In this document: one piece after another, positions 7,833 through 55,621 of the stretch
How the letters are laid out: every line of letters starts with the position of its first letter
Numbering within the stretch: the stretch's first letter is position 1
The notes under the pieces: generated by a model
Seen by the model: the letters and a program-made list of their open reading frames with translations, nothing else
What the model was told of the DNA's origin: nothing
The model's database searches: none
Assembly (NCBI RefSeq): GCF_018141165.1
Contig: NZ_CP058558.1
Span: 310,001 to 374,000 of the forward strand
DNA from: Alkaliphilus sp. B6464
GTDB taxonomy: Bacteria; Bacillota; Clostridia; Peptostreptococcales; Natronincolaceae
Direction of reading: 5' to 3'
Length of the DNA stretch: 64,000 bases
Program-made: the position numbers and the translations under genes

Positions 7833-10265
7833 ATGTTTTTTAATAAATTAAGAAAATTAGAGAGAAAGGCGTCACAGATTGATGCTCTAGGTGAAAAATA
7901 TTCCAGTATGATTGATGAACAATTAAAAGACAAAACTAAGGAATTTCAAAAGAGATTAATCGAGGGTGAACCAATAGATAATATTGCAATAGAAGCATTT
8001 GCTACAGTAAGAGAGGTCGCAAAAAGAACCATAGGTTTATATCCATATAAGGTTCAGTTACTTGGTGGATTAACCTTAAATGATGGAAATATTGCTGAAA
8101 TGCGTACTGGAGAAGGGAAAACCCTTGTAGCACCAATATCGGCATATTTAAATGCCATTGAAGGGAGAGGGGTACATATAGTCACAGTTAATGATTATCT
8201 AGCCAAAAGAGATAAGGAAACAATGGCCCCGATTTTTGAATTTTTAGGTTTAACAGTTGGGCTTATACAAGGCGAAATGAATCCTTCTGAAAGACAAGAG
8301 GCTTATGCTTGTGATATTACTTATGTCACAAATAACGAATTAGGTTTCGATTATTTAAGAGACAACATGGCAAAGGATAGAAGTCACAAGGTATTAAGGG
8401 GTCTTAATTACTGTATCATAGATGAGGTTGATAGTATTTTGATAGATGAGGCTAGAACTCCGCTAATTATATCAGGTGTATCCCAACCAAATGAAGGATA
8501 TTATGTTAAAGCAGATATATTTTTTAATATCTTAAAAGAAGGTAGAAAAATAGAAACTGATGAAAATGCGTCTAAATTAGAGAGAGCATTAACAAGAAAC
8601 CAACAAGAGATAACAGAAACTGGTGATTATATTGTAGACAAAAAAGAAAAAAGGGTCCATTTAACAAGTCAAGGGATAGCGAAAGCGGAAAATTTCTTTA
8701 AGTTTAAATGCTATACAGATCCAGAGAATTTAGAAATAATTCATTATATTGATAATGCATTAAAAGCCAATGCTTTATTTAAAAAGGATATAGATTACAT
8801 TATTCAAGATGGCAAAATAGAGATTGTAGATGAATTTACTGGCAGGATTCTAAAAGGCAGAAGGTATTCAAACGGTTTACATCAAGCAATAGAAGTTAAA
8901 GAGGGTGTGGTATTACAACCTGAATCGAAAACATTAGCATCAATAACATATCAAAATTTATTTAGGTTATATCGAAAAATTTCTGGTATGACTGGCACTG
9001 CAAAAACAGAAGAAATTGAATTTAGAGATTTATACAATATGGATGTTGTAGTTATTCCAACGAATAAGCCTATTACAAGAATAGACCAAGATGATGTTGT
9101 ATTTTTAACTGAAAAAGAAAAATATGCTGCAATCGTCAGCGATATTAAACAGAATTATGAAAAAGGCAGGCCTGTATTGGTTGGAACAACAAATATTGAA
9201 GTTTCGGAATTGATATCCACTATGTTGAATAAGGTGGGGGTAAAACATACAGTATTAAATGCAAAGCATCATGAGCAAGAGGCTGAAATTATCTCAAGAG
9301 CGGGAGAAAAGAATGGTGTAACAGTTGCAACTAATATGGCAGGTAGGGGTACAGACATTAAACTAGGTAAAGATGTTGTTGACCTTGGTGGGTTAAAAGT
9401 TATTGGTACTGAAAGACATGAATCAAGAAGAATTGATAATCAATTAAGAGGTCGTTCAGGTAGACAAGGAGATCCGGGAGAGACAATTTTTTATTTATCT
9501 CTTGAAGATGATCTAATGAATTTATTTGGTGCATCTAAATATATATCGTTATTTAAATCATTAGGAACAGAGCAAGGGTATGAGATAAAGCATCCATTGA
9601 TTACTAAGTCAGTAGAAAAGGCACAAAAGTCTATTGAAAGCAGAAACTATGGTTCGAGAAAATCAGTTATGGAGTTTGACAATATCATTAATAAACAGAG
9701 AATGACAATTTATAGAGATAGAAACAGACTCTTTGAAGAAGATGGTTTAAAGGAAGTTTTGAAAATAATAGATAGTATTTTATTAATCGAAATACAGAAA
9801 TTAAGAAATTCACCTTATGAAGAAAAGAATATTGTAAAAATAAGAAGTAAACTCTATGAATTTACAGGCATTAAGGTTGGTGACGATATAATAAGTCCAT
9901 TAAGTAATAATGGGATAGTGCAATTAATAAAAGATAATTTTACTAATCGAATAAAAGATTATAAAAAAGAAGTAATTGCTGACATATTAAAGCACATGAT
10001 GTTCGATGTCATAGATCAGGCATGGAGTGAGCATATTGATGTTCTATCAAATTTGCAAAGAGATGCAGGATTATATGGGGCAGCAGGTAAAGATCCAGTA
10101 CAAGAATTCTTTTCTCAAAGTTATGAATTGTTTAATGCTTTAATTGAAGATATACAGATAAGGATTGTAAGGTTAGCGTTTAAAATTGATTTCAAAAGCA
10201 TCTTTGAACAATCTGAATCTAGCGATTTTAAACTAGATTTTAATAAAAATGATAGAACTATATAA
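7833..10265 (+). CDS. secA: Preprotein translocase ATPase SecA (accessory copy)
   Basis: Motor ATPase that pushes secretory proteins through SecYEG. Walker A MRTGEGKT at residues 90-97, the DEAD-type motif IIDEVDSILIDEA near 195-208, and the helicase-like second nucleotide-binding fold with GTNMAGRGTDI-type (here ATNMAGRGTDIKL) and QLRGRSGRQGDPG motifs are intact. It is 810 residues, somewhat shorter than many housekeeping SecA proteins, and ends without the Cys-rich zinc tail (the CxC..CH element) that binds SecB and lipids. No SecY or accessory secretion partner is nearby, so it probably acts with the host channel. It has its own ribosome binding site (GGAGGTGG) and stands as a single-gene unit. 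Confidence 0.93.
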   Translation: MFFNKLRKLERKASQIDALGEKYSSMIDEQLKDKTKEFQKRLIEGEPIDNIAIEAFATVREVAKRTIGLYPYKVQLLGGLTLNDGNIAEMRTGEGKTLVAPISAYLNAIEGRGVHIVTVNDYLAKRDKETMAPIFEFLGLTVGLIQGEMNPSERQEAYACDITYVTNNELGFDYLRDNMAKDRSHKVLRGLNYCIIDEVDSILIDEARTPLIISGVSQPNEGYYVKADIFFNILKEGRKIETDENASKLERALTRNQQEITETGDYIVDKKEKRVHLTSQGIAKAENFFKFKCYTDPENLEIIHYIDNALKANALFKKDIDYIIQDGKIEIVDEFTGRILKGRRYSNGLHQAIEVKEGVVLQPESKTLASITYQNLFRLYRKISGMTGTAKTEEIEFRDLYNMDVVVIPTNKPITRIDQDDVVFLTEKEKYAAIVSDIKQNYEKGRPVLVGTTNIEVSELISTMLNKVGVKHTVLNAKHHEQEAEIISRAGEKNGVTVATNMAGRGTDIKLGKDVVDLGGLKVIGTERHESRRIDNQLRGRSGRQGDPGETIFYLSLEDDLMNLFGASKYISLFKSLGTEQGYEIKHPLITKSVEKAQKSIESRNYGSRKSVMEFDNIINKQRMTIYRDRNRLFEEDGLKEVLKIIDSILLIEIQKLRNSPYEEKNIVKIRSKLYEFTGIKVGDDIISPLSNNGIVQLIKDNFTNRIKDYKKEVIADILKHMMFDVIDQAWSEHIDVLSNLQRDAGLYGAAGKDPVQEFFSQSYELFNALIEDIQIRIVRLAFKIDFKSIFEQSESSDFKLDFNKNDRTI

Positions 10266-10526: not shown

Positions 10527-11639
10527 ATGAGTAGAACAGATAAATTAATTAGTGCAATTAATAAACTTCTTGAGCAAGGAATTAAAGATGGTTTCATTAC
10601 TCAAACAGAAGTAGATAAAATTTTTGAAGGTGTAGTTCTTGAGGATGAGCAAATGGAACAGATTTATAATCTCTTTAGTGAGGCTGAAATTGAGATCATA
10701 GATACTAGTGAACATGATAATACAGATGGATTTCTTGAGGGCGAAGATACAGAGACAGATTTTAATACAAATGAGGTTGAAAAGAACAATTATACTGATG
10801 TGGAATATGTATCAGAAGAAGATACACTTCGTAGGTTTTTAAGAGAAATGGGACAAATTCCTATGGTTAACATGGAAGAAGAAATAGCACTGGCTAAAAG
10901 AATTAAAAAAGGTGATGAAGAAGCCAAGAAAGAATTAATAAGTGCAAATTTAAGACTTGTAGTATCAATTGCCAAAAGGTATATGAATAGAGGACTCCCT
11001 TTCATTGATCTGATTCAGGAGGGATGTTTAGGACTGATTAAAGCAGTAGAAAAATTTGATTATACAAAGGGGTATAAATTTAGTACTTATGCAACTTGGT
11101 GGATCAGACAAGCAATCACCAGAAGTATTGCTGATCAAAGTAAAACTATTCGAATTCCAATGCACATAATTGAACTTACATCTAATTATTTAAAAGTACA
11201 TAAAAGACTTACAAATGAATTAGGCAGGGAACCATCTATAGAAGAAATTGCTATGGAAATGAAAATGCCAGAAGAAAAAATTGCCAATATAGTTATGATG
11301 ACCAAGGATACTTTATCTTTAGAAACACCTTTGTCTGATGACAATAGTTTTACTTTGGGAGATATAGTTAAGGACGATAGAGAAGACATGCCTGAAGATA
11401 TGGTTTGTAGGGGTATGTTAAATGAACATCTTAAAGAAGTACTTGATACCTTAACAGAAAGAGAGAAAATGATTCTAATTTATAGATTTGGTCTTTATGG
11501 ACATAAGGCAGAGACACTTGAGGATGTAGGTAAAAGATTTAATGTTACACGAGAGAGAATTAGACAGATCGAAAATAAGGCTCTAAGAAAATTAAGGCAC
11601 CCGTCAAGGAGTGTGAAAATTAGAGACTTTTTAAGATAA
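10527..11639 (+). CDS. RNA polymerase sigma factor, SigA/RpoD-like, complete
   Basis: Primary-type sigma-70 of 370 residues with every conserved region. An acidic region 1.1-like N-terminus (residues 1-60) is followed by region 1.2 ([16 protein letters not shown]), region 2 including [15 protein letters not shown], region 3, and region 4.2 with [21 protein letters not shown]-contact segments look canonical, so it should recognise TTGACA/TATAAT promoters. Chromosomal rpoD normally sits beside dnaG; here it stands alone between secA and a second sigma gene, which supports an accessory copy. The ribosome binding site is GGGGGT. The upstream region holds both a SigA-type promoter and a TGTTATGTT box. 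Confidence 0.93.
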
Positions 11640-11741
11640 GATAATAAAATATTTATTATAAAACTTGAAACTTATGTAAATAAACAACTATTATTTTAAT
11701 GTATTTTGTTTAAATTAAACTATCTATACGGAGGTAATTCA

Positions 11742-12839
11742 ATGAGTAATTCAAAGATCACCATACGATCCTATATGGACAAAAAAATCAACAATAGAAA
11801 AAATGGAGTTCAAATGACTATTTACGATTACAATAATATAGAGCCAATTGAAAATAGATTGGGGATATTAGTAGAAAAAGGTTGTACTCCTGATGATAAT
11901 ATTCTATCTTATGATCCTGATGAAAAAGATTTGAAAGATAATATCTGTAACAGAACCTCTCAATATGTAGATAAAGAAAGTGATTATTACTATGATGAAA
12001 TGAATATTAATAATCAAGATATACAATATGTAGACGCTACTACTCAATATTTAAAAGATATTATTCCGTTTAATCCTTTAACGTTACAAGAGGAAAAATA
12101 CTATGGGAAACTTGTATTAAATGGTAATAAGGAAGCAAGAGAAATATTAGTTTCTCATAATTTGAAATTGGTGATTCATTATGCTAAACAAAGAGTCAGA
12201 CAATCACCATTGTCTATGGAGGAATTGATTCAGGCAGGAAATATGGGACTTATCAGAGCAGTAGACACCTACGATTACACAAGAAATAATAAATTTAGTA
12301 CTCATGCGAAAAACTATATTTTGGCTTACATGTATAGAGAAGAAGAAAATTTTGCAAGACCAATTCGCTTACCTTCATATATGGTACAAACTAAAAACAA
12401 AGTTAATAAATCAATTGATAGACTCAAAAAACAATTTGAGAGGGAGCCAACTCTTGAAGAAATATCTGAAGATGCACAACTTCCTCTAAAGAGAGTTCAA
12501 AAGGCTATGGAGGCTGATATGAAATTATATAGCCTTAATGTAGCATTTGGAGAAGATAATGAGTCTGAAGGTCTCGATTTCTTCAGCAGCGAACATGATG
12601 TGGAGCAGGAGTTTATTGACGGAGAGATGAAAAATGTAATTAGACTTGCAACAAAAGATTTATCGGATTTAGAAATGCAAGTTATACATCTAAGACACAT
12701 AGAGAACATGTCATTTAATAAGATTAGTAAAAAAATAAGTATGGATTTAGAAGATGTAAAAAGAATAGAAGAAAAAACAATAACTATTTTAAAAGAAAAA
12801 CTTGAAAATTTAGGATTAAGAATCGACAATTTTTTCTAA
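11742..12839 (+). CDS. Divergent sigma-70 family factor
   Basis: Second sigma factor of 365 residues, starting at the ATG after CGGAGGTAATTCA (the reading frame is open further upstream to 11706). It has an unrelated N-terminal ~110 residues, then region 1.2/2 (LTLQEEKYYGKLVLNG, ELIQAGNMGLIRAVDTYDY), region 3 and a region 4 with weak HTH. Region 2.3-2.4 reads HAKNYILAYMYREEE instead of the canonical [12 protein letters not shown], and region 4.2 lacks the [10 protein letters not shown] signature, so its promoter specificity should differ from SigA. It lies 102 bp downstream of the SigA-like gene, after a CTTGAAA promoter-like element. It is the natural candidate reader of the TGTTATGTTA boxes, which is inference only. 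Confidence 0.85.
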   Translation: MSNSKITIRSYMDKKINNRKNGVQMTIYDYNNIEPIENRLGILVEKGCTPDDNILSYDPDEKDLKDNICNRTSQYVDKESDYYYDEMNINNQDIQYVDATTQYLKDIIPFNPLTLQEEKYYGKLVLNGNKEAREILVSHNLKLVIHYAKQRVRQSPLSMEELIQAGNMGLIRAVDTYDYTRNNKFSTHAKNYILAYMYREEENFARPIRLPSYMVQTKNKVNKSIDRLKKQFEREPTLEEISEDAQLPLKRVQKAMEADMKLYSLNVAFGEDNESEGLDFFSSEHDVEQEFIDGEMKNVIRLATKDLSDLEMQVIHLRHIENMSFNKISKKISMDLEDVKRIEEKTITILKEKLENLGLRIDNFF

Positions 12840-22606: not shown

Positions 22607-23986
22607 ATGATATATAATGAATTTAGACCGCAGATATTTGATCAAATTTTAGGCCAAGAAGTATCTGTTACGGTTGCTAGGAATTTAGTTGTAAAGTATC
22701 AAAATAATGATGGCAAAATGCCTAATTTATTAATGGTAGGATTGCATGGTTCAGGAAAAACCACAACTGCAAGAGTGGTTGGAAAAGCCGTAAACTGTGA
22801 GGCACCCCAAGATGGAAATCCTTGCAATCAATGTAAAAGTTGTATTGATTATGAGAAAGGCAATAATTATGATATTAAAGAAATAGACGGTGCAAGTAAT
22901 AACAGTGTGGATGACGTAAGAAAAATTCAAGAAGAACTTGTATATGGACCTCAAAGAAAGAAAAAGGTTTATATTATAGACGAGGTTCACATGCTTTCAA
23001 AAGTAGCCTTCAATGCTCTGCTTAAAACAATTGAGGAAACTCCTAAATATGTAATGTTTATTCTTTGTACTACAGAAGTCGATAAAGTTCCTAAAACTAT
23101 TAAATCACGATGTATTAGATTAGACTTTAATAGAATAGCAACGAAAGAGATATATGAAAATCTTGATTTTATCTGTTTAGAAAAAGACCTTAAATATGAG
23201 GAAGAAGGTTTAAAACTTATTTCTAAAATTGTTAATGGCAGCATGAGGGATGCATTAAGTATGTTCGAAAAGTGCATTTCTTATGGTGAACTTACTTATA
23301 AGAATATTAGTGACGTATTAGGTTTGGTAGACATATATACGGTACAAGATATAATGTTGAATATTTTTAATAAAAAACCTCTTGAAGCAATGGAGACTAT
23401 AACTGATCTGTATAACAAAGGGAAGGATATGCTTCAACTTGCAATAGATATGTTGCAAGTAATGAGAAACGTTATGATTCTTCAAACTACAGATAATAAT
23501 ATATTATTTGATATTGATATCACACAATTAAAAGGAGTTAAATTAAATCCTATAGACTGTTATACTGCTATCAATGAATTATCAAATCTTCAGAAATCAA
23601 TGATGAATTCCGATAATCAAAAGATACTGATGGATGTTGCAGTTCTACAGTTATCGCAGATAATAAATGCTGAAGTAACTACTGATGAACCATCTAAAAC
23701 TAAAGAAGAAGGTTCTAAAAAAATAAGTAGCGAAGTAAAAAAAGAGAGTTCTATTAATATTGATGAGATAGACCACAATGATTATCTGATTAACAAAATT
23801 GACCTTATTAAATCTTATGACGATGATGACAAAATAAAAGCACTTGTTAATGCCACGATATATACAAAAAAAGATGCCTTTATAATTATGGCATCAGAAA
23901 AAAATAATTTAGATATAGATGATTTAAAAGATAAAATGAAGAAGATAACAGGGAAAGAATTAAATATTTTAATAAAAACAGCATGA
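22607..23986 (+). CDS. dnaX: DNA polymerase III gamma/tau-like clamp-loader ATPase
   Basis: AAA+ clamp-loader subunit, 459 residues. Walker A GLHGSGKTTT (45-54), zinc-binding Cys64, 73, 76, 79 in the DnaX spacing, Walker B YIIDEVHML and the arginine-finger region IKSRC are intact. The C-terminal domain is short and Lys/Ser-rich, compatible with a gamma-like or short tau form. It is not followed by the ybaB-recR pair usual for chromosomal dnaX, so this is probably an accessory copy that could load the host clamp on the element's own forks. Ribosome binding site GGGAGG; a terminator follows. Confidence 0.9.
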   Translation: MIYNEFRPQIFDQILGQEVSVTVARNLVVKYQNNDGKMPNLLMVGLHGSGKTTTARVVGKAVNCEAPQDGNPCNQCKSCIDYEKGNNYDIKEIDGASNNSVDDVRKIQEELVYGPQRKKKVYIIDEVHMLSKVAFNALLKTIEETPKYVMFILCTTEVDKVPKTIKSRCIRLDFNRIATKEIYENLDFICLEKDLKYEEEGLKLISKIVNGSMRDALSMFEKCISYGELTYKNISDVLGLVDIYTVQDIMLNIFNKKPLEAMETITDLYNKGKDMLQLAIDMLQVMRNVMILQTTDNNILFDIDITQLKGVKLNPIDCYTAINELSNLQKSMMNSDNQKILMDVAVLQLSQIINAEVTTDEPSKTKEEGSKKISSEVKKESSINIDEIDHNDYLINKIDLIKSYDDDDKIKALVNATIYTKKDAFIIMASEKNNLDIDDLKDKMKKITGKELNILIKTA

Positions 23987-31298: not shown

Positions 31299-31309
31299 TT
31301 TTATTTATG

Positions 31310-31340
31310 AAATTCAGGAGAAATGCTCCTGAATTTTTAT
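31310..31340 (+). terminator. Rho-independent terminator
   Basis: AAATTCAGGAG / CTCCTGAATTTTT hairpin after the LysM gene. Confidence 0.85.
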
Positions 31341-31371: not shown

Positions 31372-31401
31372 TTGACATAGAAAAATATCTTTCATTAATA
31401 T
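31372..31401 (+). promoter_or_regulatory. SigA-type promoter of MORN-flagellin gene
   Basis: TTGACA, 18-bp spacer, TAATAT. It differs from the SigD (sigma-28) consensus normally found before flagellin genes. Confidence 0.6.
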
Positions 31402-31442
31402 GCAACAACAATAAGACAGTGATACATAAAGGAGTGGTATAT

Positions 31443-33239
31443 ATGAGAATTGGAGATTTAACAAACACTGCGATGATGTTTTCATACAATATGAAAGTGC
31501 AGGGGAAACAAATATCCTCTAGTATGGAAAAGATATCAACTGGTAAACAAGTAAATAGAGCAGCAGATAGTCCGCCAGATATTCTTAAAATTAGCAGATA
31601 TGAATCTCAAATAAGGGGAAGTCAGCAAGCACAAAAGAATATCCAAGACAGTATCTCGATGATTCAAGTAGCAGATAATTCATTGGAGAGAATCGAGGAA
31701 TTAGGGAATAACTTGAGAGAATTAGCAACGAAATATCAGTCAAACAACATAAATGCAGAAGAAAAAGAAAGTATTAAAAATGAGGCTTATGAACTTATAA
31801 AAGAAATAAGTCATACTATAGAGCATACAGAATTCAATAGAATAAAAATATTTGAACAAAATTGTTTTAGAATTCAAACTGGACCCAATTCAGGAGATTA
31901 TTTAGATATAGATATGGGAAAAAACAATTTAAGTGATATTAAAAAATTTCTTGATGATATTAATAACACAAGAGATGATTCTGGAGATAACGAGCAAATT
32001 GATACCGATCCAGATAAAGATATAAATACTCCTACTAACCCAACAGATGAAGACACTGACATAGATAATGAATTGCCTCCTACAGATAAAGAAAAGCCAC
32101 CAGTGGATAGTAAAGACCCTCCTTCAGATGATAACGATACTGATATAAAAGAACCTTCAGAGAACACAAATAGTGGAATTATATTACCTCCAAATATGAC
32201 ACTCGATGTATCTGATGGATGGCATAAACTCTATAATGAAGATGGGATTAAAATTTATGAGGGTAATATTAAGAATGGAAAATTTGATGGATTTGGAAAA
32301 TGGTATAATGACACAGGAGAACTAATTTATGAAGGCAATTTTAAAAAAGGGAACTATGACAAATATGGAAAAGTATATAATCCAAACACAGGCAGATTGG
32401 CTTATGAAGGGGATTTTAAAGATAACCAATTTGATAAATATGGAACATTATATTATGAAAATGGAAAAATTAAATATCAGGGTTCTTTTAAAGACGGGAA
32501 ATATGATGGATATGGAACACTTTATAATGAACAAGGCGAAATTGAATATCAAGGAAGTTTTAAGGATAATGAATACGAGGGACTTGTAAAAAATAATAAT
32601 GGAAACAAAGATAATGAAACTAGAAATAACTCTGATACTTACGAGAATAAAACTATTTTGGTTAATAGAAATAATGCGAACAATGGTCTAAATTCACATA
32701 AATTAGAAGAAACTAATCAAAGACAGAATAATAATATAAAAACTAATAAAATAAAGAATAGTGATAACACAGGGTATGAATCTATTGGTAAAATACTAAA
32801 TAGCATTACAAATGATGAACTAGTAGGTAAAAATGTAGTAGTAAATGAATATAAGCATAATAATTCTATGAAACAGCATGAAGAAAATACATCTACACAA
32901 GAAGTTTTATTAAATAGTACAAATATGAAAAAAACTACTTCTGAAGATATTGTTGATTTATTAAAGGATTCTGATAAGATTGATGAAAAGATACTGAAGC
33001 CTATTTCAAATTTGAGAAGTTATTTAGGTATACAGGAAAAGTTATTAGAAGGAAGATTGAGATTTCAACAATCAAATGAAATGATTAAACTCAATGCTTT
33101 GTCGAAGATACAAGATGTAAATATGGCCAAAGAAATTATGAGTATAACTAAAAGTCAAATACTTATGGATGTAAATGCTGCAATGATGGCACAGCATTTA
33201 AACTTTAATAGAAACTTAATTATTAACCTATTAAGATAA
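31443..33239 (+). CDS. Flagellin with internal MORN repeats
   Basis: Protein of 598 residues with flagellin D0/D1 ends: N-terminus MRIGDLTNTAMMFSYNM, then SSSMEKISTGKQVNRAADSP and the long D1 helices; C-terminus IQDVNMAKEIMSITKSQILM up to LLR. The surface-exposed middle is replaced by an acidic Asp/Pro/Thr linker (about residues 172-240), five MORN-type repeats of 24-25 residues (about 259-381, pattern GxGxxYnexGxixYeGxFKdgxxD) and an Asn-rich spacer. The start at ATG after GGAGTGGTATAT is preferred over the open frame to 31323. Five YEG/YQG MORN_2 units on a flagellin are unusual. Likely a filament or adhesin-like subunit. A SigA-type promoter and strong terminator make it a single-gene unit. 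Confidence 0.85.
   Translation: MRIGDLTNTAMMFSYNMKVQGKQISSSMEKISTGKQVNRAADSPPDILKISRYESQIRGSQQAQKNIQDSISMIQVADNSLERIEELGNNLRELATKYQSNNINAEEKESIKNEAYELIKEISHTIEHTEFNRIKIFEQNCFRIQTGPNSGDYLDIDMGKNNLSDIKKFLDDINNTRDDSGDNEQIDTDPDKDINTPTNPTDEDTDIDNELPPTDKEKPPVDSKDPPSDDNDTDIKEPSENTNSGIILPPNMTLDVSDGWHKLYNEDGIKIYEGNIKNGKFDGFGKWYNDTGELIYEGNFKKGNYDKYGKVYNPNTGRLAYEGDFKDNQFDKYGTLYYENGKIKYQGSFKDGKYDGYGTLYNEQGEIEYQGSFKDNEYEGLVKNNNGNKDNETRNNSDTYENKTILVNRNNANNGLNSHKLEETNQRQNNNIKTNKIKNSDNTGYESIGKILNSITNDELVGKNVVVNEYKHNNSMKQHEENTSTQEVLLNSTNMKKTTSEDIVDLLKDSDKIDEKILKPISNLRSYLGIQEKLLEGRLRFQQSNEMIKLNALSKIQDVNMAKEIMSITKSQILMDVNAAMMAQHLNFNRNLIINLLR
32218..32586 (+). repeat. Five MORN_2-type repeats within flagellin
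   Basis: In-frame repeats of 72-75 bases encoding WYNDTGELIYEGNFKKG-like units. They have diverged at the DNA level, so they are old or under selection rather than a recent slippage product. Confidence 0.75.
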
Positions 33240-33247: not shown

Positions 33248-33292
33248 AAAAAAGAGATCATGACAATTAATTTAGTCATCATCTCTTTTTTA
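33248..33292. terminator. Strong hairpin terminator after flagellin
   Basis: AAAAAAGAGATcATGAC / GTCATcATCTCTTTTTT; A and T tracts on both ends make it potentially bidirectional, serving also the convergent 33353 gene. Confidence 0.85.
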
Positions 33293-39861: not shown

Positions 39862-41637
39862 TTATTTATTTTCAATTGTTTTTTCATTCTTAGAAGACTT
39901 ACCAAATAGTATCTGATCAAGTTCTTTTTCTTCAAGAGTTTCTTTTTCTATAAGTTTATCTGCAACTGACTTTAAAATATCTTTATTATTTTTCAATATT
40001 TCAAGAGTCTTATCATAGATGTCTTTAGCCATTCTCTTAGCCTCTCCAAGTATAGCCTTGTCATCATTGTATCCAAAATCATCAAGATTTAACATGCCGA
40101 ATGAATCCGTCATACCGTAGTATTTAATAATGGATTTAATAGTGGCAGTTGCTTTGCTAATATCACTACTTGCACCAGTTGTAATCTTATCTTCGTGACC
40201 AAGAAGTAAGTATTCACCAACTCTGCCACCGTAACTGATCATTACATCATTTATTAAATCTTCTTTTGAGTGCAGTCCTAATTTTTCAGGAGGAATAAAT
40301 GTAACTCCACCTGCTCCACTTGTGCTAGGTATGATTGTGACTTTAGGCACAGACTTTTTAGCGACAAGTTTAGCAATAACTGCATGTCCTGCTTCATGCC
40401 AAGCAACAAGTTCAATTTCGGATTTATCTCTATTTTTTCTATTTTTCTTTTCGTCACCCTTCATAACAATTTTATAAAAGGCTTTATCAACATCATTTGC
40501 TGTAATTTCACTATGCTTATTTTGAACCGCAATAATAGCAGATTCATTTAATAGGGTTTTAAGACCTGCACCTGCAAAACCTATAGTAAGTTTAGCAAGT
40601 TGTTCAAAATCTACATCTTTGGAAAAAGTCTTTCCTTTCGCATGAAGATGTAAGATTTTTAATCTATCTTCTTTATCAGGAAGATTAATGGCTATATGTC
40701 GATCAAACCTGCCCGGCCTTACTAATGCTTCGTCTAAATCATCAAGCCTGTTTGTTGCTGCTATAACCAATATGCCTTGGCTAGTATCAAATCCATCAAG
40801 TTCATTAAGGAGTGCATTTATAGTCTGATCTCTTTCAGAGTTAGAATCTCTACCTCTTTTTCCACCAATTGCATCTATTTCATCAACAAATACAACACAA
40901 GGAGTATTTTTCTTAGCCTCTGCAAATAGTTCCCTTACTCTCTTAGCACCTACACCTACATACATTTCAACAAAGTCTGAACCCGAAGCATAATGAAAAG
41001 GTACCCCTGCTTCACCTGCAATTGCTTTAGCCATTAAGGTCTTACCCGTTCCCGGAGGGCCATAAAAAATAACCCCTTTAGGAAGTATAGCACCCATATC
41101 TCTATATTTTTTAGGCTCTTTTAAGAAGTCTACCAAATAGATCATATCTTCCTTCGATTCCTCATTGCCTGCTATATCACAGAATCTAATAGAAGATTTT
41201 ACAGTTCTTTTAGGTTTTTGATTGCTTACTACACTAACTCCTTTTAAGGAATTTTTGAAAAGAAAGTAGAAGAATCCTAGAAAAATCGGAAAAGGAAGAA
41301 AAGCAACTGCGAAGTCTAAAATTAGACGATTACTATTATTTTCCGTAACCTCTACATTACTTTTCAGAAGCAACGCCTTAAATCCTTCCATTCTTGGATT
41401 ATCGGTAATATATTTATTACCTTGAATATCTGTAAATGTAAATTTTGGAGCAGAGAAATTAAGAATTACTTCTTGGACCTGTCCATGACTTAACATTTCT
41501 TCAAATTTCACATATTCTAGTTTCTTAGGGTTGCTTGTAAACATTGATGTAGTAATGTATACATTAATAAAAATAAAAACTATAACAAGTGCAACACCTA
41601 CTTTTTTATTGGAAAAAAACTTCATAAATTTCTTCAT
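39862..41637 (-). CDS. ftsH: ATP-dependent zinc metalloprotease FtsH
   Basis: Membrane-bound AAA+ protease, 591 residues. Two membrane helices (about 13-31 and 106-128) flank a short extracytoplasmic domain; Walker A GPPGTGKT (193-200), Walker B VVFVDEIDAIG, the second region of homology (AATNRLDDLDEALVRPGRFD) and the zinc site HEAGH (414-418) with a later Asp (TTGASSDISKAT) are intact. It degrades membrane and regulatory proteins. It is not flanked by tilS-hpt, the usual chromosomal context, so it is probably an accessory copy. One small oddity is GAGLKTLLNE where GADLxxLLNE is usual. Ribosome binding site GAGAGGTG. Confidence 0.93.
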   Translation of the reverse strand: MKKFMKFFSNKKVGVALVIVFIFINVYITTSMFTSNPKKLEYVKFEEMLSHGQVQEVILNFSAPKFTFTDIQGNKYITDNPRMEGFKALLLKSNVEVTENNSNRLILDFAVAFLPFPIFLGFFYFLFKNSLKGVSVVSNQKPKRTVKSSIRFCDIAGNEESKEDMIYLVDFLKEPKKYRDMGAILPKGVIFYGPPGTGKTLMAKAIAGEAGVPFHYASGSDFVEMYVGVGAKRVRELFAEAKKNTPCVVFVDEIDAIGGKRGRDSNSERDQTINALLNELDGFDTSQGILVIAATNRLDDLDEALVRPGRFDRHIAINLPDKEDRLKILHLHAKGKTFSKDVDFEQLAKLTIGFAGAGLKTLLNESAIIAVQNKHSEITANDVDKAFYKIVMKGDEKKNRKNRDKSEIELVAWHEAGHAVIAKLVAKKSVPKVTIIPSTSGAGGVTFIPPEKLGLHSKEDLINDVMISYGGRVGEYLLLGHEDKITTGASSDISKATATIKSIIKYYGMTDSFGMLNLDDFGYNDDKAILGEAKRMAKDIYDKTLEILKNNKDILKSVADKLIEKETLEEKELDQILFGKSSKNEKTIENK

Positions 41638-47374: not shown

Positions 47375-47917
47375 ATGAAAAAAATGCAAAGAAAAGGTTT
47401 CACATTAGTGGAATTAATTATAGTAATCGTAGTGATCGGACTTTTAGCAGGTATGGCTGCTCCAAAATTCATGGGAGTTGTTCGTGATGCACGACACGCT
47501 AACTTCGTAAATGATGTTGATGTATTAACAACAGTTGCTACACTTGTAGAAACTCAAAGAGAACAAAATGATCCTGTTTATGGACATGATGTAAGTGGAG
47601 TAGCATTAGATTTTTCAAAAAATGCAGATTTACAAGATGGATTAAAAGCAGCATTAGCAGATTCAGGAGTTCAGACTGCTGATATTGATGCTAAACTTGC
47701 AGAAGTAAAAATTATGCCAATTGATGCTGCTAAATACAGTGAAAGCCTTGGAAAGAAAACAAAAACTGCTGATTTAAGCAAGTTTTATGTAGTTACTGAA
47801 GGTGTACTCGCAGGAACAATTGTTTACGAAGGTGACGAGACTGCTGAAAAAAATGGAGTAGTTGATGGTCAAGGTAATGAATTCTTTGGATTAGAAATTG
47901 TTAAGAAAGCACAATAA
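47375..47917 (+). CDS. Type IV major pilin (PilA-like)
   Basis: Prepilin of 180 residues. Short basic leader MKKMQRKG, cleavage before FTLVELIIVIVVIGLLAGMA, with Glu5 of the mature protein present. The mature globular domain is Ala/Asp/Val-rich and soluble, with no Cys pair. Codon use is more uniform than in neighbours (many GCA, GGA, GTA), consistent with strong expression. Cleaved presumably by the A24 peptidase at 34775. Own promoters upstream and a perfect palindromic terminator downstream. Confidence 0.93.
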   Translation: MKKMQRKGFTLVELIIVIVVIGLLAGMAAPKFMGVVRDARHANFVNDVDVLTTVATLVETQREQNDPVYGHDVSGVALDFSKNADLQDGLKAALADSGVQTADIDAKLAEVKIMPIDAAKYSESLGKKTKTADLSKFYVVTEGVLAGTIVYEGDETAEKNGVVDGQGNEFFGLEIVKKAQ

Positions 47918-47932
47918 TATCTAATTAATATA

Positions 47933-47974
47933 AGATAAGGGGAAAGAATTTAAATTCTTTCCCCTTATCTTTTA
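47933..47974 (+). terminator. 38-bp perfect palindrome terminator after pilin
   Basis: The arms are AGATAAGGGGAAAGAATTT and its exact complement with no loop bases beyond the turn, followed by TTTT. Confidence 0.85.
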
Positions 47975-48032
47975 ATGCCTTATCATGCTTACATTTTGAC
48001 AAGGTGTTAAATCTAAAAAAGGAGTGGTTTAT

Positions 48033-48407
48033 ATGTCAAAAACATTTAACTTTAGAAATTTGTATATGTATTTAGTTTGTCTTATTACACTTATAATTTT
48101 TCTTGTGTCTACTATAAATGGTGCTAATAGTTTGATGGATACGGTTTTCCCAAACACAAATCATTATATATCATATGAGGACTATCAGCAAAGATACATT
48201 CAGTCTAAAGATTTTGAGGTGAAAGAAGATATTGAAGTTGTTCCACCGGAATATATAAAAAAAGAGTATGATGAATACATTAAAAAAGAAAATACTAGAG
48301 AGCAGCAAAGAAATTTAAAGCGTTTTTTTTCTAGTTTAATATCTATGTTAATTTCTGGAGGATTTTGGTTCTATCACTGGAAAAAAGTACGAAATGAAAA
48401 ACAATAA
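48033..48407 (+). CDS. Membrane protein with two TM helices, unknown function
   Basis: Protein of 124 residues with hydrophobic segments near residues 11-30 and 100-116 and a charged middle (Glu/Lys, EEYIKKEYDEYIKK-like). Start after AAAGGAGTGG; the frame is open to 48024. It lies between the pilin and the PilM-PilN gene and might be a pilus-machinery accessory, but it is not recognised. Confidence 0.65.
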   Translation: MSKTFNFRNLYMYLVCLITLIIFLVSTINGANSLMDTVFPNTNHYISYEDYQQRYIQSKDFEVKEDIEVVPPEYIKKEYDEYIKKENTREQQRNLKRFFSSLISMLISGGFWFYHWKKVRNEKQ

Positions 48408-48410
48408 AAG

Positions 48411-48443
48411 AAAAATCGGGGTGAATTTCAACCTCGATTTTTA
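48411..48443 (+). terminator. Rho-independent terminator
   Basis: AAAAATCG / CGATTTTT stem with inner GGTTGAAA/TTTCAACC-like pairing. Confidence 0.75.
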
Positions 48444-48504
48444 GTAGTGATATTCATATTTAGCAAACACTTCTCTGATTATAAAAGATAAGGAGTGTTT
48501 TTTA

Positions 48505-50190
48505 TTATGGCATATTTATCATAGCATCTTCCATTAGATTGTTCTCTAATCCCAAAAGATTTTTATCTACAATTTTAGCCGATATAGTAAATTCAAAATG
48601 TCTAATAATATATTTCCCAACTGTTTTATCTACTGCATTATATGAAAAATCTATATCTTTAAATTCTCCTTGATGACTTAATTCTTTTATAAAATACCCA
48701 ATGTCACTATAGGTACCTGCAAGCCCTTTCATAGTCAAGTTATAGCCATCTATACTTATTTGATCTACTTGAATAGATTGAGGTATTATTTCCCTTATCT
48801 TTTTCAAATAATCAATATGATTTAATTTTGATGCGGTAAGTTGTTTAATATGGTAATTGTATTGTTCTTTCTGTTGATTTTCCTGATTCTTTTGATTAAG
48901 TTCATCTTGAATAGATTGATATTCATTTGAAAGTTGACTATCTTGAGATTTTAATTCTGCTATTTGAACTCTATAATTTTTAAATTCTTTTTCCAAAGAA
49001 TTTAATTTATTTATGGGATACAAATTAAGTCCTATAATTGACATTAAACAAATTACTCCTGTTGCTATCAACATTTTTTTATTGCATTTATTGCTCCCCT
49101 GTATATTACCATCAAATACAATACTAATTTTAGGTTCAGAAAAGTTCTGGAATGAACTTGAAAGAGCAGTAGTATAAAATTCTAAATTATTCTTAATTTT
49201 TTCATCTTGATTCTCTAATAAATAGTAAGGAACTAATTTTTTAACAGGTTTTTCTATTTTATTGCTGATGTATTCAGGTAAATAAGCAAGTTTTGAAGTT
49301 CCACCAGTTATATATACATGTTCAACATCCAGTTCCAATTCTGTTGATGCAATGAACAGAGTTTTCTTGATTTCCGATAAAACTATATCTATTTGTGATG
49401 ATAATATATCAGATATTTCTTGGTGTATTTCACTTTCAGATAGATTCTCATGTCCTTTCAAGACACATCCGTAATCTAATTTTAATTCTTCGGCCTCTGT
49501 ATTAGAGATATTCTTAAATCTTGCAATCATTTCTGTTAACATTCTTCCGCCCAAATCTATTGACCTAACTAAAAGAGGGATTTGGCCCTGCGAAATAATA
49601 AAGTCAGTAGAAGTGTGTCCTAAATCTATAATAAGGTTAATATCCTCATTATTTATTACATTATTTAATATAGTTGTTGTTTTAGATTGTATAACCAAGT
49701 CTAACTTCTCTAATTTATCATCTTTAAAAATCTCTTGATAAGACTCTAAAACTTCTTTATTTGCAACTACTAATAACATTTTTTGTCCTTTATCATACTC
49801 CTCTAAAACACTCCATGCAGGTAAAAATTTTTCTCCGTCTTTTACTGGGATCCTATCTTCAATTTCTATTTGCATAGCCTTTTCTAATTCTTTACTGTTT
49901 AGTTTATTCATGTTAAATATTCTAGTTAAAGAACATTCTGGAGTTTTGTTAGGGATAGATAATATTGTTTTGGGACTATCAAGTTTGTATTCGGATATAA
50001 ATTCCTTTAGAGCATCTCTAATAAATCCAAATTCCTCTATCTTCCCACTCTTAATAAAAGGCTCAATATCATATTTTTTATAGGCATATATATTATAGAA
50101 GTTTTTATTCTTTTTAATAACAGAAAGTTTCATATATTTATCACCAAAGTCAACTCCAAGGATATCTTTATTCTTCTTTAATCCAAACAT
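48505..50190 (-). CDS. PilM-PilN fusion protein of type IV pilus
   Basis: Single protein of 561 residues joining two normally separate alignment-complex parts. Residues 1-345 are an actin-like PilM ATPase fold (ILGVDFGDKYMKLSVI, LIIDLGHTSTDFII, VYITGGTSKL). Then comes a membrane helix (about 373-392), a coiled coil and a PilN-type ferredoxin-like domain (IIPQSIQVDQISIDGYNLTM, FIKELSHQGEFKDI). PilM alone is cytoplasmic and binds the PilN tail, so fusion makes the link permanent. It is on the strand opposite to the rest of the pilus cluster and ends between two plus-strand genes. Ribosome binding site GGATGTGGG. Confidence 0.85.
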   Translation of the reverse strand: MFGLKKNKDILGVDFGDKYMKLSVIKKNKNFYNIYAYKKYDIEPFIKSGKIEEFGFIRDALKEFISEYKLDSPKTILSIPNKTPECSLTRIFNMNKLNSKELEKAMQIEIEDRIPVKDGEKFLPAWSVLEEYDKGQKMLLVVANKEVLESYQEIFKDDKLEKLDLVIQSKTTTILNNVINNEDINLIIDLGHTSTDFIISQGQIPLLVRSIDLGGRMLTEMIARFKNISNTEAEELKLDYGCVLKGHENLSESEIHQEISDILSSQIDIVLSEIKKTLFIASTELELDVEHVYITGGTSKLAYLPEYISNKIEKPVKKLVPYYLLENQDEKIKNNLEFYTTALSSSFQNFSEPKISIVFDGNIQGSNKCNKKMLIATGVICLMSIIGLNLYPINKLNSLEKEFKNYRVQIAELKSQDSQLSNEYQSIQDELNQKNQENQQKEQYNYHIKQLTASKLNHIDYLKKIREIIPQSIQVDQISIDGYNLTMKGLAGTYSDIGYFIKELSHQGEFKDIDFSYNAVDKTVGKYIIRHFEFTISAKIVDKNLLGLENNLMEDAMINMP

Positions 50191-50355
50191 TAACCCACAT
50201 CCTTTATTATATATTGACCATTTTAAAAGTCACTCATATGATATTGATTTCATTTATAGAAGTCAAAAAATACCCTTTAAAAATTGAAACAATGGCACCT
50301 CATTCTTATAATGTTTGAGATTTAAATAGTAACTTTACAAGAAAGAGGTGTTTGT

Positions 50356-51441
50356 ATGGAAAGAACTTTGTTTTTACAATTACTAAATTACATGATTCTA
50401 AATAAATGTTCTGACCTTCATATAATTGTAAATATGAAACCATATGTGAGAAAACATGGCGATATAGTACCAATTGATGATCATGGTGTAATTACTAAAG
50501 AAATGGTTGAGACAGTTTTCATAAATGAGATTATGACAGGACAAGAGTTTAAAATGAAAGAGTTAGATAAAAACGGACAGGTAGATATGTCTTTTGAAAC
50601 TCCTGAAGGAAGAAGATTCAGGGTTAATATATTTACTCAAAGAGGAAATAGAGGAATTGTTATTCGTAAAATTGAATCAAAAGTTCCTTCCTTATTTGAT
50701 TTAGGGTTGCCCGATGCTGTGGAAACATTTACGAAATTACATTCTGGATTAGTGCTTGTAACGGGACCAACAGGTTCAGGCAAATCTACCACACTGGCTG
50801 CTATGATAGATTTAATTAATTCAACACAGAAAAAACATATATTAACAATAGAGGATCCTATTGAATATGTACATCCAAATAAACTATCTATTGTTAACCA
50901 AAGAGAAGTAGGACATGATGTGTTTTCATTCTCTGATGCAGTTAAAGCATCTCTTAGGGAAGATCCAGACATTGTGTTGGTAGGAGAAATGAGAGACCTT
51001 GATACAATACAAAATGCGATTCGTGTTGCTGAAACTGGACATTTAGTATTTGCAACACTTCATACGATATCTGCCCCAAAAACAATAGATCGTATTATAG
51101 ATGTATTTGAGCCAAATGCCCAACAACAAATTAGAACCCAATTATCAACAGTATTACAAGGGGTGGTGTCTCAAAGGCTTATACCTAAAATTGGTGGAGG
51201 AGTAGTTGCAGCAATTGAACTTATGATTGTAACAGATGCAATGAGAGGGATAATTAGAGATGGAAAAAACATATCTGGATTATCTGATGCAATTACTATG
51301 AATAAACAAAAACTTGGAACACAAACAATAGATCAGGCTCTAGCATCATTATATATACAAAAGAAAATAACTCTTGATACTGCTTACAGTCATTGCAGTG
51401 ATGTGGAGGCAATGAAAAAATTAATTATTATGGGTAGATAG
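50356..51441 (+). CDS. pilT: Type IV pilus retraction ATPase PilT
   Basis: Hexameric ATPase that drives pilus retraction, 361 residues, the usual length. Walker A GPTGSGKST (137-145), the Asp box (LTIEDPIEYVH), Walker B (DPDIVLVGEMRD) and His box (GHLVFATLHT) are intact. Its N-terminal PAS-like domain shows CSDLHI. First gene of a run pilT-pilC-pilB with gaps of about 16-20 bp. Ribosome binding site AAAGAGGTG. Confidence 0.93.
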   Translation: MERTLFLQLLNYMILNKCSDLHIIVNMKPYVRKHGDIVPIDDHGVITKEMVETVFINEIMTGQEFKMKELDKNGQVDMSFETPEGRRFRVNIFTQRGNRGIVIRKIESKVPSLFDLGLPDAVETFTKLHSGLVLVTGPTGSGKSTTLAAMIDLINSTQKKHILTIEDPIEYVHPNKLSIVNQREVGHDVFSFSDAVKASLREDPDIVLVGEMRDLDTIQNAIRVAETGHLVFATLHTISAPKTIDRIIDVFEPNAQQQIRTQLSTVLQGVVSQRLIPKIGGGVVAAIELMIVTDAMRGIIRDGKNISGLSDAITMNKQKLGTQTIDQALASLYIQKKITLDTAYSHCSDVEAMKKLIIMGR

Positions 51442-51457
51442 TTAGGAGGAGATATTA

Positions 51458-53065
51458 ATGGAGTTTACTTATAAAGGTAGGGATAAATATAACAATCTTA
51501 TTAATGGGAGTATTGAGGGGAAATCAAGAAAAGAAGTCATTATACAACTTAAAAAAGATAAGGTAACTATTATTGAATTAAATGAAGAAAAAGAAAAATC
51601 AACATCAATTATAAGGAAGAAGATAAGTTCTAATTTAGATAAAATAAAACAATCGAACAGTTTTAAATCAGTAAGCAAAATAAAGGACATGAATTTTTCT
51701 TTAAACATTAACATTAATAAAGGTAAATCAGAAAATATAAAATTTCATTCAAAAACAAGACCTAGTGACAAATTTCAAAAAGAAAATAAGCAGAGTAAAA
51801 AAGCAATTGATGAGGCTCTCTCAAATCTCGATATTTCAGAAATGAGCAATCCTGATTATTTTAAGAATATGGATAAAGAAATTGCAAAAGAGCAAAAAGA
51901 AAAAAAAATAGGGAAAAAAAATAAAAACATCCTTACATCAGAGATAGATATGGACAGAATTAAAAATTTACTAAATACAGATTTAAAAAACTTAAAAGGT
52001 GAAGGAAAAAAGAAAAATATAGGTAATAAAAAGGTTAATAAAAAAGAAATAATGATGTTTTCAAAACAATTTGTTGTACTATTAAATGCAGGTATTCCCC
52101 TTGTAAAGTGTTTGCAGATATTAATGCAGCAAACGGATCATAAATACTTTCAAAAGGTTTTGGCTTATGTAACACGAGAGGTATCAAAAGGTTCAAGTCT
52201 CTCAATCGCATTAAGTAAATTTCCTCATATATTTGATAATTATTATGTATCCATGGTTCAGACTGGAGAATCAACAGGAGAACTTGCAGAAACATTTGAT
52301 ATGCTTTATGACAATATGATGTCAAATCAAAAATTGAAAGGCAAAATTGTTGAAGCATCTATATACCCTATATTTATTTTCTCGATTTTAATATTTGCCA
52401 TGATTACTGCAATATTTGTTATTATTCCGCAGTTTGAACAATTGTTTGATGGACAACCATTACCTGAATTTACCAGAATATATTTTGGAGTAGTAAAATT
52501 TATTGGTAGCAATATTTTGTATATTATTTCATTTATTGTAGCAATGACTATTGGATATAAAATGGCCCTTAAAAATACTTATTTCAAATATTTTGTAGAT
52601 ATGCAAAAATTTAAAATTCCAGTTTTCGGTGAGGTAATTAGAGAATATCAAAATACAATCATGTTAAAAACATTAAATATTGCTTTATCTAGTGGTATTT
52701 CACTTCCAGAATCAATATCAATAGCAATTAATAATACTACTAATTATGGTATGAAATTTGAACTACAGAATGTATTAAATTCAGTTATTCAAGGTACTCC
52801 AGTTTCGGTTGCAATGCAGTCATCTCTTGCTTTTCCTAATTATACGATAAATATGATAAAAATTGGAGAGGAAAGCGGTAATATGCAAGAAATGATACAG
52901 AATACATTTAGGTGGTATGATTGGAAGATTACTTCTTTCATAGAAAAGGCAAGTAAATGGATGGAACCTGCGTCAATCGTATTGGTCGCAATATTTGTTG
53001 CTCCAATGATATTTGCGATTGCAATTCCTATTTTTGAAATTTCATCTGGTGCAGGGATTCAATAG
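51458..53065 (+). CDS. pilC: Type IV pilus platform protein PilC with N-terminal insertion
   Basis: Inner-membrane platform protein, 535 residues against about 400 in usual members. The first ~40 residues (EFTYKGRDKYNNLINGSIEG) fit the PilC start; then comes a Lys/Ser/Asn-rich, probably disordered insertion of about 150 residues (about 45-195) before the first GspF domain (MFSKQFVVLLNAGIPLVKCL). Two GspF domains and three membrane segments follow. The insertion is cytoplasmic and highly basic, so it might bind DNA, the motor ATPases or membrane lipids. Operon member between pilT and pilB. Confidence 0.9.
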   Translation: MEFTYKGRDKYNNLINGSIEGKSRKEVIIQLKKDKVTIIELNEEKEKSTSIIRKKISSNLDKIKQSNSFKSVSKIKDMNFSLNININKGKSENIKFHSKTRPSDKFQKENKQSKKAIDEALSNLDISEMSNPDYFKNMDKEIAKEQKEKKIGKKNKNILTSEIDMDRIKNLLNTDLKNLKGEGKKKNIGNKKVNKKEIMMFSKQFVVLLNAGIPLVKCLQILMQQTDHKYFQKVLAYVTREVSKGSSLSIALSKFPHIFDNYYVSMVQTGESTGELAETFDMLYDNMMSNQKLKGKIVEASIYPIFIFSILIFAMITAIFVIIPQFEQLFDGQPLPEFTRIYFGVVKFIGSNILYIISFIVAMTIGYKMALKNTYFKYFVDMQKFKIPVFGEVIREYQNTIMLKTLNIALSSGISLPESISIAINNTTNYGMKFELQNVLNSVIQGTPVSVAMQSSLAFPNYTINMIKIGEESGNMQEMIQNTFRWYDWKITSFIEKASKWMEPASIVLVAIFVAPMIFAIAIPIFEISSGAGIQ

Positions 53066-53085
53066 AAATAAAAGGAGGGAAAAAC

Positions 53086-54717
53086 ATGAATTTTTTAGAG
53101 TATTTATTTAATAACGGAGTTATTAGAGAGGAAATATATCAAGAAGTTAAAATAAAAGGAGATAATTGTATGGATTACCTCTTTGAACACAAACTTCTTA
53201 ATAAAGAAGTCTTGATTAAATATATAAAACAATTTTATATGATAGATTATGTTGATTTGAAAAAACAACATATAACAGAAGAAATTATTAGATTAATTCC
53301 TGAAAATTTAATTATGAAATATGAATTAATAGCATTTGATAATGACGGAGAGTTTATTAAAATCGCAGTATCTAAACCTCATAATTATGTGTTGGATGAA
53401 GATTTGGATATAATGTTGCACCCCATGAAGATTAAGAAATATTTTGCTTTTAGTAAAGAAATTCTTGCAAAAATTGAAAGCATAAATAAATCAAATGTAG
53501 ATAATGTAATAGATGACAATTTAAAAATAGATGATGGTGCATTTGTACAAATTGTAGATAGAATTATTCGTTCAGCATTATCTAAAGAAGTTTCTGACAT
53601 ACACTTAGAGCCAATTGATAAAAGAGTAAGAGTTAGATTTAGAGTTGATGGTGATTTAGAGATTCAAAAAGAGTTTAATTTTCCAATTGGAGAATATTCA
53701 GGTCTTGTATCAAGAGTAAAGGTTCTTGCAGATATGGACCCTACTAAAAGCAGAGAGGCACAAGATGGAAGAATTGCTAATTATGAATTAGATGGGCAAA
53801 AATATGATCTTCGTATTTCTTCTTTACCTACGGTTTATGGAGAAAAGATTGTAATGAGGGTATTGGAAGATAAATCTCAAATTAAGGATTTTAGACCATT
53901 AGGTTTTAGTGAAAAAGAAATTGAAACTTTGGATAAAATGCTTGAGAAAGATAATGGAATCCTTCTCATTACAGGAGAAACTGGTTCTGGTAAATCTACA
54001 ACCCTATATGCTATTTTAAATAAAATGAACAATGAAGAAGTAAATATCTGTACTGTGGAAAATCCTGTTGAATCTTCTATCCCCGGTGTAAATCAAGTAC
54101 AGGTAAACCCACAAGCAGGAATTACATTTTCATCAGCACTTAGAACATTTTTAAGACAAGATCCCGACATTGTAGTTGTAGGAGAAACTCGTGATACTGA
54201 AACCGCAAAAACAGCCGTTGATGCTGCCAACACAGGTCATTATGTTTTATCTACCATTCATACAAATAACGCAACAACTACTATCAATAGACTTATCGCT
54301 ATGGGGATTGAGCCTTATAAACTAGCAGATAACATAGCAGGAATCATTTCTCAAAAACTCATAAAAAAGGTATGTCCTTTCTGCCAAGAATCACATAATG
54401 CAACTGAAAAAGAACTTTCCTTTCTCAAAAAGGTAGAAGAAAAATATCAAAGAAAAATAATTACTGGTAATGAAGTTTTCTATAAGGGGACTGGTTGTAG
54501 TGAATGTAAAGATGGATACAAAGGAAGGGTTGTTATTATGGAAATGCTATTAATTGATGATATTATTAATGAATTAATTGCATCAAATTTAAATAGTACA
54601 GAACTTAGAAAAGAAGTTGCTAAAAATCAAAGTTTCCTTCCTTTTGAATTAGAGGCTATTGAAAAGGCTAAATTAGGTAAAATTGATATAAAGGACGTTA
54701 TAAGAATGTTTAATTAA
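53086..54717 (+). CDS. pilB: Type IV pilus assembly ATPase PilB
   Basis: Extension ATPase, 543 residues. N-terminal MshEN-like domain (1-130), Walker A GETGSGKST (297-305), Asp box (CTVENPVE), Walker B (DPDIVVVGETRD) and His box (GHYVLSTIHT), then the zinc-binding loop with CPFC and CSEC. The N-terminal domain type often binds c-di-GMP, which would fit the HD-GYP gene downstream, but I cannot verify the binding residues. Last gene of the pilT-pilC-pilB run; a terminator follows. Confidence 0.93.
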   Translation: MNFLEYLFNNGVIREEIYQEVKIKGDNCMDYLFEHKLLNKEVLIKYIKQFYMIDYVDLKKQHITEEIIRLIPENLIMKYELIAFDNDGEFIKIAVSKPHNYVLDEDLDIMLHPMKIKKYFAFSKEILAKIESINKSNVDNVIDDNLKIDDGAFVQIVDRIIRSALSKEVSDIHLEPIDKRVRVRFRVDGDLEIQKEFNFPIGEYSGLVSRVKVLADMDPTKSREAQDGRIANYELDGQKYDLRISSLPTVYGEKIVMRVLEDKSQIKDFRPLGFSEKEIETLDKMLEKDNGILLITGETGSGKSTTLYAILNKMNNEEVNICTVENPVESSIPGVNQVQVNPQAGITFSSALRTFLRQDPDIVVVGETRDTETAKTAVDAANTGHYVLSTIHTNNATTTINRLIAMGIEPYKLADNIAGIISQKLIKKVCPFCQESHNATEKELSFLKKVEEKYQRKIITGNEVFYKGTGCSECKDGYKGRVVIMEMLLIDDIINELIASNLNSTELRKEVAKNQSFLPFELEAIEKAKLGKIDIKDVIRMFN

Positions 54718-54718
54718 T

Positions 54719-54748
54719 GCTTAGGGGTTTTTAATCCCTAAGTATTTT
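54719..54748 (+). terminator. Rho-independent terminator after pilB
   Basis: CTTAGGG / CCCTAAG stem with T-rich tail. Confidence 0.7.
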
Positions 54749-54776
54749 ACATAATTAAGATATAAGGGGTGGTTAT

Positions 54777-55139
54777 ATGTTTCGATTAAATAGAAAAGGT
54801 CAAACTTATCCAACAGTTATAATTGGAATTATAATAATTATTTTATTAAGTGGTGTTACTCATGGTGCTATAAGGGAATCATTAGATAAATTAGCATATA
54901 GAACTAAAGATTTTCACTCATTTGTATTGGCTCATTCAGAATTAAATAAAGAACTTAGTAAAAATGTCTTATCAAATAGATTTAGTGAACGTACCATTAA
55001 AATAGACAATAATCAATACACAGTAAGAGTTTCTATTCTAGATACTTCAAGAGGGACCAAGAATATAGATGTAGAGGTCCTATTTAATCATAAAGGGAAT
55101 GAATTTGCAAAAAAATTATCAACAGAAAGGAATGTTTAA
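54777..55139 (+). CDS. Pilin-like protein with atypical signal
   Basis: Protein of 120 residues with leader MFRLNRKG and hydrophobic core QTYPTVIIGIIIIILLSG. Gly at -1 is kept, but mature residue 1 is Gln and position 5 is Thr rather than Glu, giving a class III-like or decayed prepilin signal. A beta-rich C-terminus follows. In the position of a minor pilin (PilV-like); possibly a pseudopilin. Confidence 0.7.
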   Translation: MFRLNRKGQTYPTVIIGIIIIILLSGVTHGAIRESLDKLAYRTKDFHSFVLAHSELNKELSKNVLSNRFSERTIKIDNNQYTVRVSILDTSRGTKNIDVEVLFNHKGNEFAKKLSTERNV

Positions 55140-55140
55140 T

Positions 55141-55602: not shown

Positions 55603-55621
55603 ATTGGAAGGGGGAAATATT

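Follow-up and report, generated by a model that had tools for sequence, protein, structure and literature searches.

A divergent flagellin carrying a MORN-repeat surface domain on a putative giant plasmid of Alkaliphilus sp. B6464

Here we report a lone flagellin gene on a putative plasmid of Alkaliphilus sp. B6464, the product of which (hereafter referred to as the MORN flagellin) carries a MORN surface domain, together with a homologue of the same architecture from a Brevibacillus plasmid that has been annotated merely as "flagellin". Chance does not account for the architecture, because the homologue repeats it and the predicted structure folds confidently; it is real, rare and conserved, and it is not unique. 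We propose, at about even confidence, that the MORN flagellin may act as a plasmid-borne accessory flagellin, a minor filament subunit adding a protein-binding surface of adhesive or aggregating character.

The MORN flagellin belongs with the known flagellins that carry foreign surface domains, such as flagellinolysin. Flagellins with foreign domains are described as assembling and acting at the filament surface (PMC5595980). Flagellinolysin, like the MORN flagellin, has its foreign domain in the flagellin hypervariable region, and it is an accessory subunit to which we liken the MORN flagellin; its insert is an HExxH peptidase, an enzyme, whereas the insert of the MORN flagellin consists of MORN repeats. 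The MORN flagellin is not a flagellinolysin, as it gave no match to NF033876 and contains no HExxH in its sequence.

Gene layout and transcription unit

The window, that is, the whole 64,000-nucleotide stretch analysed, spans positions 310001 to 374000 of contig C2 (435,827 bp), one of the two contigs of the genome (C1 and C2). The gene and its flanking elements are as follows, in window positions.

31309..31337, + strand: terminator-like hairpin of the upstream LysM gene, found by a hairpin scan; it would isolate the flagellin transcript
31372..31401, + strand: SigA-like promoter, TTGACA-18-TAATAT, with a perfect −35; a consensus match only
31428..31434, + strand: ribosome binding site AAAGGAG, read from the sequence
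31443..33239, + strand: MORN flagellin open reading frame, 598 residues, intact, with Pfam matches
31443..31937, + strand: D0/D1 N-terminal flagellin region, residues 1–165; Pfam Flagellin_N; AlphaFold2 helices 3–33, 44–99 and 105–128, strands 141–157
31938..32216, + strand: acidic Pro/Asp-rich tether, residues 166–258; pI 4.1; pLDDT below 50 for residues 183–249
32217..32624, + strand: MORN domain, residues 259–394; 12 strands; PF02493; pLDDT about 90 over residues 259–380; closest PDB fold, MORN1 structures
32256, 32328, 32403, 32475 and 32547, + strand: starts of the MORN units, assigned in the sequence
32625..32936, + strand: Asn-rich tether, residues 395–498; 30 Asn in 118 residues; pLDDT below 50
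32937..33239, + strand: C-terminal D1/D0 flagellin helices and stop codon, residues 499–598; Pfam Flagellin_C; AlphaFold2 helix 510–597
33250..33289, + strand: inverted repeat with a T run 3′ of the stop, a probable terminator; read from the sequence, its 10-base loop being beyond the limits of the scan

The acidic and Asn-rich linkers noted in the initial annotation are thus both present, one before and one after the repeats. The gene is probably transcribed alone, because it is flanked by the hairpin upstream and, downstream, by the inverted repeat and its T run. A SigA- rather than SigD-type promoter, as first assigned, is consistent with the consensus match and with the lack of any SigD-like site within 200 bases upstream; however, promoter-like sites in the region are no commoner than in shuffled sequence. 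SigD-like sites are present before both chromosomal flagellins. The gene for the MORN flagellin probably forms a transcription unit of its own, with a SigA-like promoter and separate from the flagellar regulon of the chromosome.

Replicon and gene neighbourhood

We infer that C2 is a plasmid from its size, its separate contig and its gene content. Pfam searches found no flagellar gene among the neighbours of the MORN flagellin, and C2 holds neither a second flagellin nor FlhA, in agreement with the earlier statement that the window contains no other flagellar gene. C1 encodes three proteins with Flagellin_N, of which two are flagellins and one is FlgL, as well as the genome's only FlhA.

The remaining content of C2 is varied. 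An array of 27 tRNA genes covering all 20 amino acids lies at C2:149396-154047; the Brevibacillus plasmid described below has a smaller tRNA cluster, of six genes. At window positions 10527-12839 there is a primary-type sigma-70 factor (regions 1.1, 1.2, 2, 3 and 4) and, after it, a second sigma factor. Genes at 409-2649, 7833-10265, 22607-23986 and 39862-41637 resemble the housekeeping-type proteins topoisomerase/gyrase A, SecA, DnaX and FtsH; all four are named from their sequences, with a database comparison for FtsH. A type IV pilus-like cluster (pilin, PilM, PilT, PilC and PilB-like frames, read from the list of open reading frames) occupies 47375-57192. Large surface-type proteins adjoin one another at C2:201784-209749, one of 1542 residues with PA14 and one of 1078 residues with fibronectin-III. 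Type II/IV secretion ATPases are also encoded on C2; among the C2 proteins scanned, no conjugation gene was identified.

Flagellin identity of the ends

Both ends of the protein align with flagellin profiles, as initially proposed. In Pfam, Flagellin_N matches residues 12–139 (E = 2.1e-18) and Flagellin_C residues 512–593 (E = 2.7e-6), each over its gathering score. The two Pfam end models cover FlgL as well, and PF00669 recovered the host FlgL. Because of this overlap, we built FliC and FlgL profiles from fetched FliC and FlgL sequences and scored each end separately. The MORN flagellin favours FliC over FlgL at the N terminus (111.6 versus 42.9 bits) and at the C terminus (52.8 versus 8.5 bits), and the Brevibacillus homologue does likewise (91.8 versus 68.8 and 41.4 versus 15.8 bits, respectively). 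The C-terminal MAKEI...TK motif is also of the flagellin type.

Among NCBIfam models, the MORN flagellin scores 82.7 bits with a flagellin model versus 47.5 with FlgL, whereas the top model for the homologue is FlgL (TIGR02550) at 82.5 bits; neither protein reaches the TIGR02550 cut-off of 127.2. No full-length NCBIfam model reaches its cut-off for either protein, the best being 82.7 versus 352 (NF009446), a type of model set for typical full-length flagellins, which the host's own flagellin also misses (333.9). In the MORN flagellin, DDAAGLAIS, a motif widely conserved in flagellins, is replaced by DSPPDILKIS. By these profiles and motifs, the two proteins are flagellins of the FliC type, but divergent ones. 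With the tree described below also considered, an FlgL identity is rejected for the MORN flagellin, and less clearly for the homologue.

MORN repeats of the surface domain

The surface domain consists of five 24-residue MORN units, starting at residues 272, 296, 321, 345 and 369, of which the fifth is degenerate. They have the hallmarks of MORN proteins, tandem 23–24-residue Y-x-G units arranged as a β-meander, here with five units and twelve strands. The initial annotation had called them five MORN_2 repeats; the number stands, but the label does not, as PF02493 (MORN) is barely over its cut-off (23.1 versus 22.5 bits) and PF07661 (MORN_2) falls below its gathering cut-off (20.5 versus 29.6 bits). 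In the Brevibacillus homologue, PF02493 scores 26.9 bits, likewise above the cut-off, as are the Pfam flagellin matches at both of its ends.

A binding surface, as first suggested, is plausible. Lipids had been named among the possible ligands of the filament surface. This option is weakened, and with it lipid binding as the default function of MORN repeats, by the finding that TbMORN1 binds neither membranes nor vesicles, reported together with a redefinition of MORN as a protein–protein interaction and oligomerisation module (Sajko et al., PMC7725318). For bacterial MORN_2 proteins, an adhesin role has not been proved (PMC10434195).

Predicted structure

The structure prediction proposed as a check was run with AlphaFold2, on an alignment of the MORN flagellin, other flagellins and one IMG/VR MORN protein; two alignments with misplaced C-terminal helices were left out. 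The model comprises a filament-type flagellin core, a confident MORN β-meander and disordered tethers. The mean pLDDT is 68, pulled down by the two disordered linkers (residues 183–249 and 393–498), whereas the D1 helices and the MORN meander (residues 259–394) are mostly at 85–95; the N-terminal D0 stretch (residues 1–40) is lower, at about 46–62. Solved flagellar filaments align with the model at Z 15–19, mostly over about 265 residues (VIA-align), for a model built with flagellin rows. Since such rows favour a flagellin-like D0/D1, it is the sequence tests that carry the identification.

The MORN part superposes on Toxoplasma MORN1 (6t6q) with an rmsd of 2.8 Å and 32% identity (Foldseek). 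The MORN meander fold is shared with MORN1 of Toxoplasma, Trypanosoma and Plasmodium (6t6q, 6t68 and 6t4d; PMC7725318), but those proteins are eukaryotic and, unlike the MORN flagellin, lack flagellin ends. The surface domain is thus modelled as a MORN β-meander on two long disordered tethers.

A homologue on a Brevibacillus plasmid

The best match among 72,556 plasmid records is a flagellin on a Brevibacillus halotolerans plasmid (WPS85595.1, CP139434.1:105316-106809, strain B-4359; plasmid length 414,359 bp). Like the MORN flagellin, it runs from a flagellin N-terminal region through a linker, MORN units and a second linker to a flagellin C-terminal region, and it too lies on a large plasmid (414 kb) without any other annotated flagellar gene. 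It differs in having four MORN units instead of five, and a basic first linker where that of the MORN flagellin is acidic. The two proteins are 36% identical; by region, they share 38% at the N terminus, 45% in the MORN domain and 39% at the C terminus. In the comparison that accompanies the tree below, they are 37% identical to each other and at most 31% to others.

A tree of the D0/D1 regions groups the two MORN flagellins in a single clade (99/98), separate from the flagellins of the host itself and joined to the tree close to the stem that divides FlgL from flagellin. Their branches are long, and removing either protein changes the position of the other; on its own, the Brevibacillus homologue joins the FlgL side. 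A common origin of the two proteins appears likely from these comparisons.

BLAST matches link about 65–70 open reading frames of C2 to the Brevibacillus plasmid, many of which are general families. The nearest relatives of the C2 FtsH are FtsH proteins from other large plasmids of Bacillota, including the Brevibacillus plasmid; DnaE gives another order than FtsH, and a third marker did not reach the Brevibacillus plasmid. These data suggest a shared backbone of the two plasmids, and giant plasmids may plausibly form a loose family.

Rarity and other flagellins on mobile elements

The initial annotation knew of no flagellin with MORN repeats. A literature search, whose scope ended short of the PMC5595980 supplement listing 61 flagellin domains, likewise returned no report of one, but the Brevibacillus homologue shows that the protein is not alone. 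It had also been asked whether the architecture is common in databases; about 800 relatives, 72,556 plasmid records, 50,697 phage records and IMG/VR yielded this one homologue. No further MORN flagellin was found among the plasmid records, and none among the phage records or in IMG/VR scans with both proteins and their alignment. Across the class (391 genomes) and the phylum (398 genomes), with at most three candidates scored per genome, the matches listed had flagellin ends or MORN, never both. The genome search of the family found no other MORN flagellin, and exact peptide patterns found no close relative of either protein in 84,980 species genomes. The sole IMG/VR candidate (L111:1611-3389, on a 29-kb contig) proved to be a flagellin with a different insert, matched by PSII_BNR β-propeller and F5/8 type C models.

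Flagellins without MORN repeats occur elsewhere on mobile elements. There are 33 flagellin loci on IMG/VR contigs that range from 11 to 386 kb, and lone flagellins are found on Bacillota megaplasmids of Jeotgalibacillus, Rossellomorea, Pontibacillus, Priestia and Paenibacillus urinalis. The latter, like the MORN flagellin, have no flagellar gene beside them, and their plasmids measure 215 kb to 1.08 Mb; unlike it, they show no MORN match, are 268–347 residues long and in some cases stand in tandem copies. On the plasmids of Rossellomorea (L107:3621-4906) and Paenibacillus urinalis (L110:3715-5014), csrA lies directly 5′ of the lone flagellin. The MORN repeat type is also present in proteins encoded on IMG/VR contigs and on a Virgibacillus plasmid, but these lack flagellin ends. 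It may be common for mobile elements to carry a flagellin.

Discussion

In the reading that we favour, the MORN flagellin would be exported through the host's flagellar type III apparatus and would enter the filament as a minor subunit, and the filament would then present many MORN copies on flexible arms. The resulting surface could bind or aggregate flagella with one another, or attach them to other cells or to a different surface, with a benefit to the plasmid or the host. An adhesive or aggregating surface is the most likely effect because MORN is a protein–protein interaction and oligomerisation module. The division of genes supports this reading, with the export gene flhA and the other flagellins on C1 and the MORN flagellin alone on C2, as do the other surface appendage and adhesin-like genes of C2 (secretion ATPases, pilus genes, PA14 and fibronectin-III). 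Co-polymerisation with the host flagellin may be poor, given the divergent ends and the altered DDAAGLAIS motif.

A further guess is a benefit specific to the plasmid, such as bringing donor and recipient together. In its boldest form, to which we give a slim chance, the adhesive flagellins of giant Bacillota plasmids, copolymerised into the filament, would turn flagella into mating or clumping organelles that bring plasmid-free cells to the donor. A link between plasmids and flagella has precedents. The plasmid pLS20 requires donor flagella and induces cell clusters, but flagellar entangling or adhesion has been argued against as the cause of this clustering (PMC11730352), and we therefore keep the mating idea only as a more speculative reading.

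The MORN flagellin might instead simply alter the antigenic or phage-binding face of the filament, allowing escape from flagellum-binding phages or from immunity, with a MORN domain that binds nothing specific. Such a swap would account for flagellins of any surface type on mobile elements, as seen in the MORN-less flagellins of other large Bacillota plasmids, two of them adjoining csrA, and in those of the IMG/VR contigs. However, the host's own flagellins are still present, and the higher identity of the MORN domain than of the ends across two classes suggests a conserved role; we consider this explanation unlikely.

Alternatively, the protein might remain unassembled, either competing for the flagellin chaperone or export gate and lowering the motility of the carrier, or leaving the cell as a MORN protein in soluble form. 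There is precedent for plasmids that reduce motility by an exported protein that binds the flagellum, RSP of R27, which also favours mating (PMC6764697), and the divergent D0/D1 ends with their lost motif would suit a decoy. Yet regulation would need no conserved surface domain of 130 residues, nor a soluble MORN protein a retained C-terminal helix, and this role seems improbable.

The FlgL-leaning features of the Brevibacillus homologue, namely its best NCBIfam model and its position when alone in the tree, raise the question of a FlgL (HAP3)-like junction or cap protein, or of a minor subunit restricted to a single zone of the filament, so that MORN would be exposed at that site alone. The flagellin-type C-terminal motif, the preference of the MORN flagellin for flagellin over FlgL models and that of both proteins for FliC profiles at both ends argue against this, and we find it decidedly doubtful. 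Finally, the long disordered tethers and long branches might suggest a remnant of recombination that is decaying or not expressed; this is highly improbable for an intact 598-codon frame with a promoter-like site, a ribosome binding site and an upstream terminator, and with an architecture kept between classes.

Flagellin surface domains are a natural form of display, in which one domain is repeated along the entire filament. If our favoured reading is true, a flagellin bearing MORN repeats would make a protein-binding filament, and its presence in two bacterial classes, each time on a giant replicon, would imply that mobile replicons refit the flagella of their hosts. The arrangement would also give a bacterial MORN domain a defined location outside the cell, in which its ligand could be sought directly.
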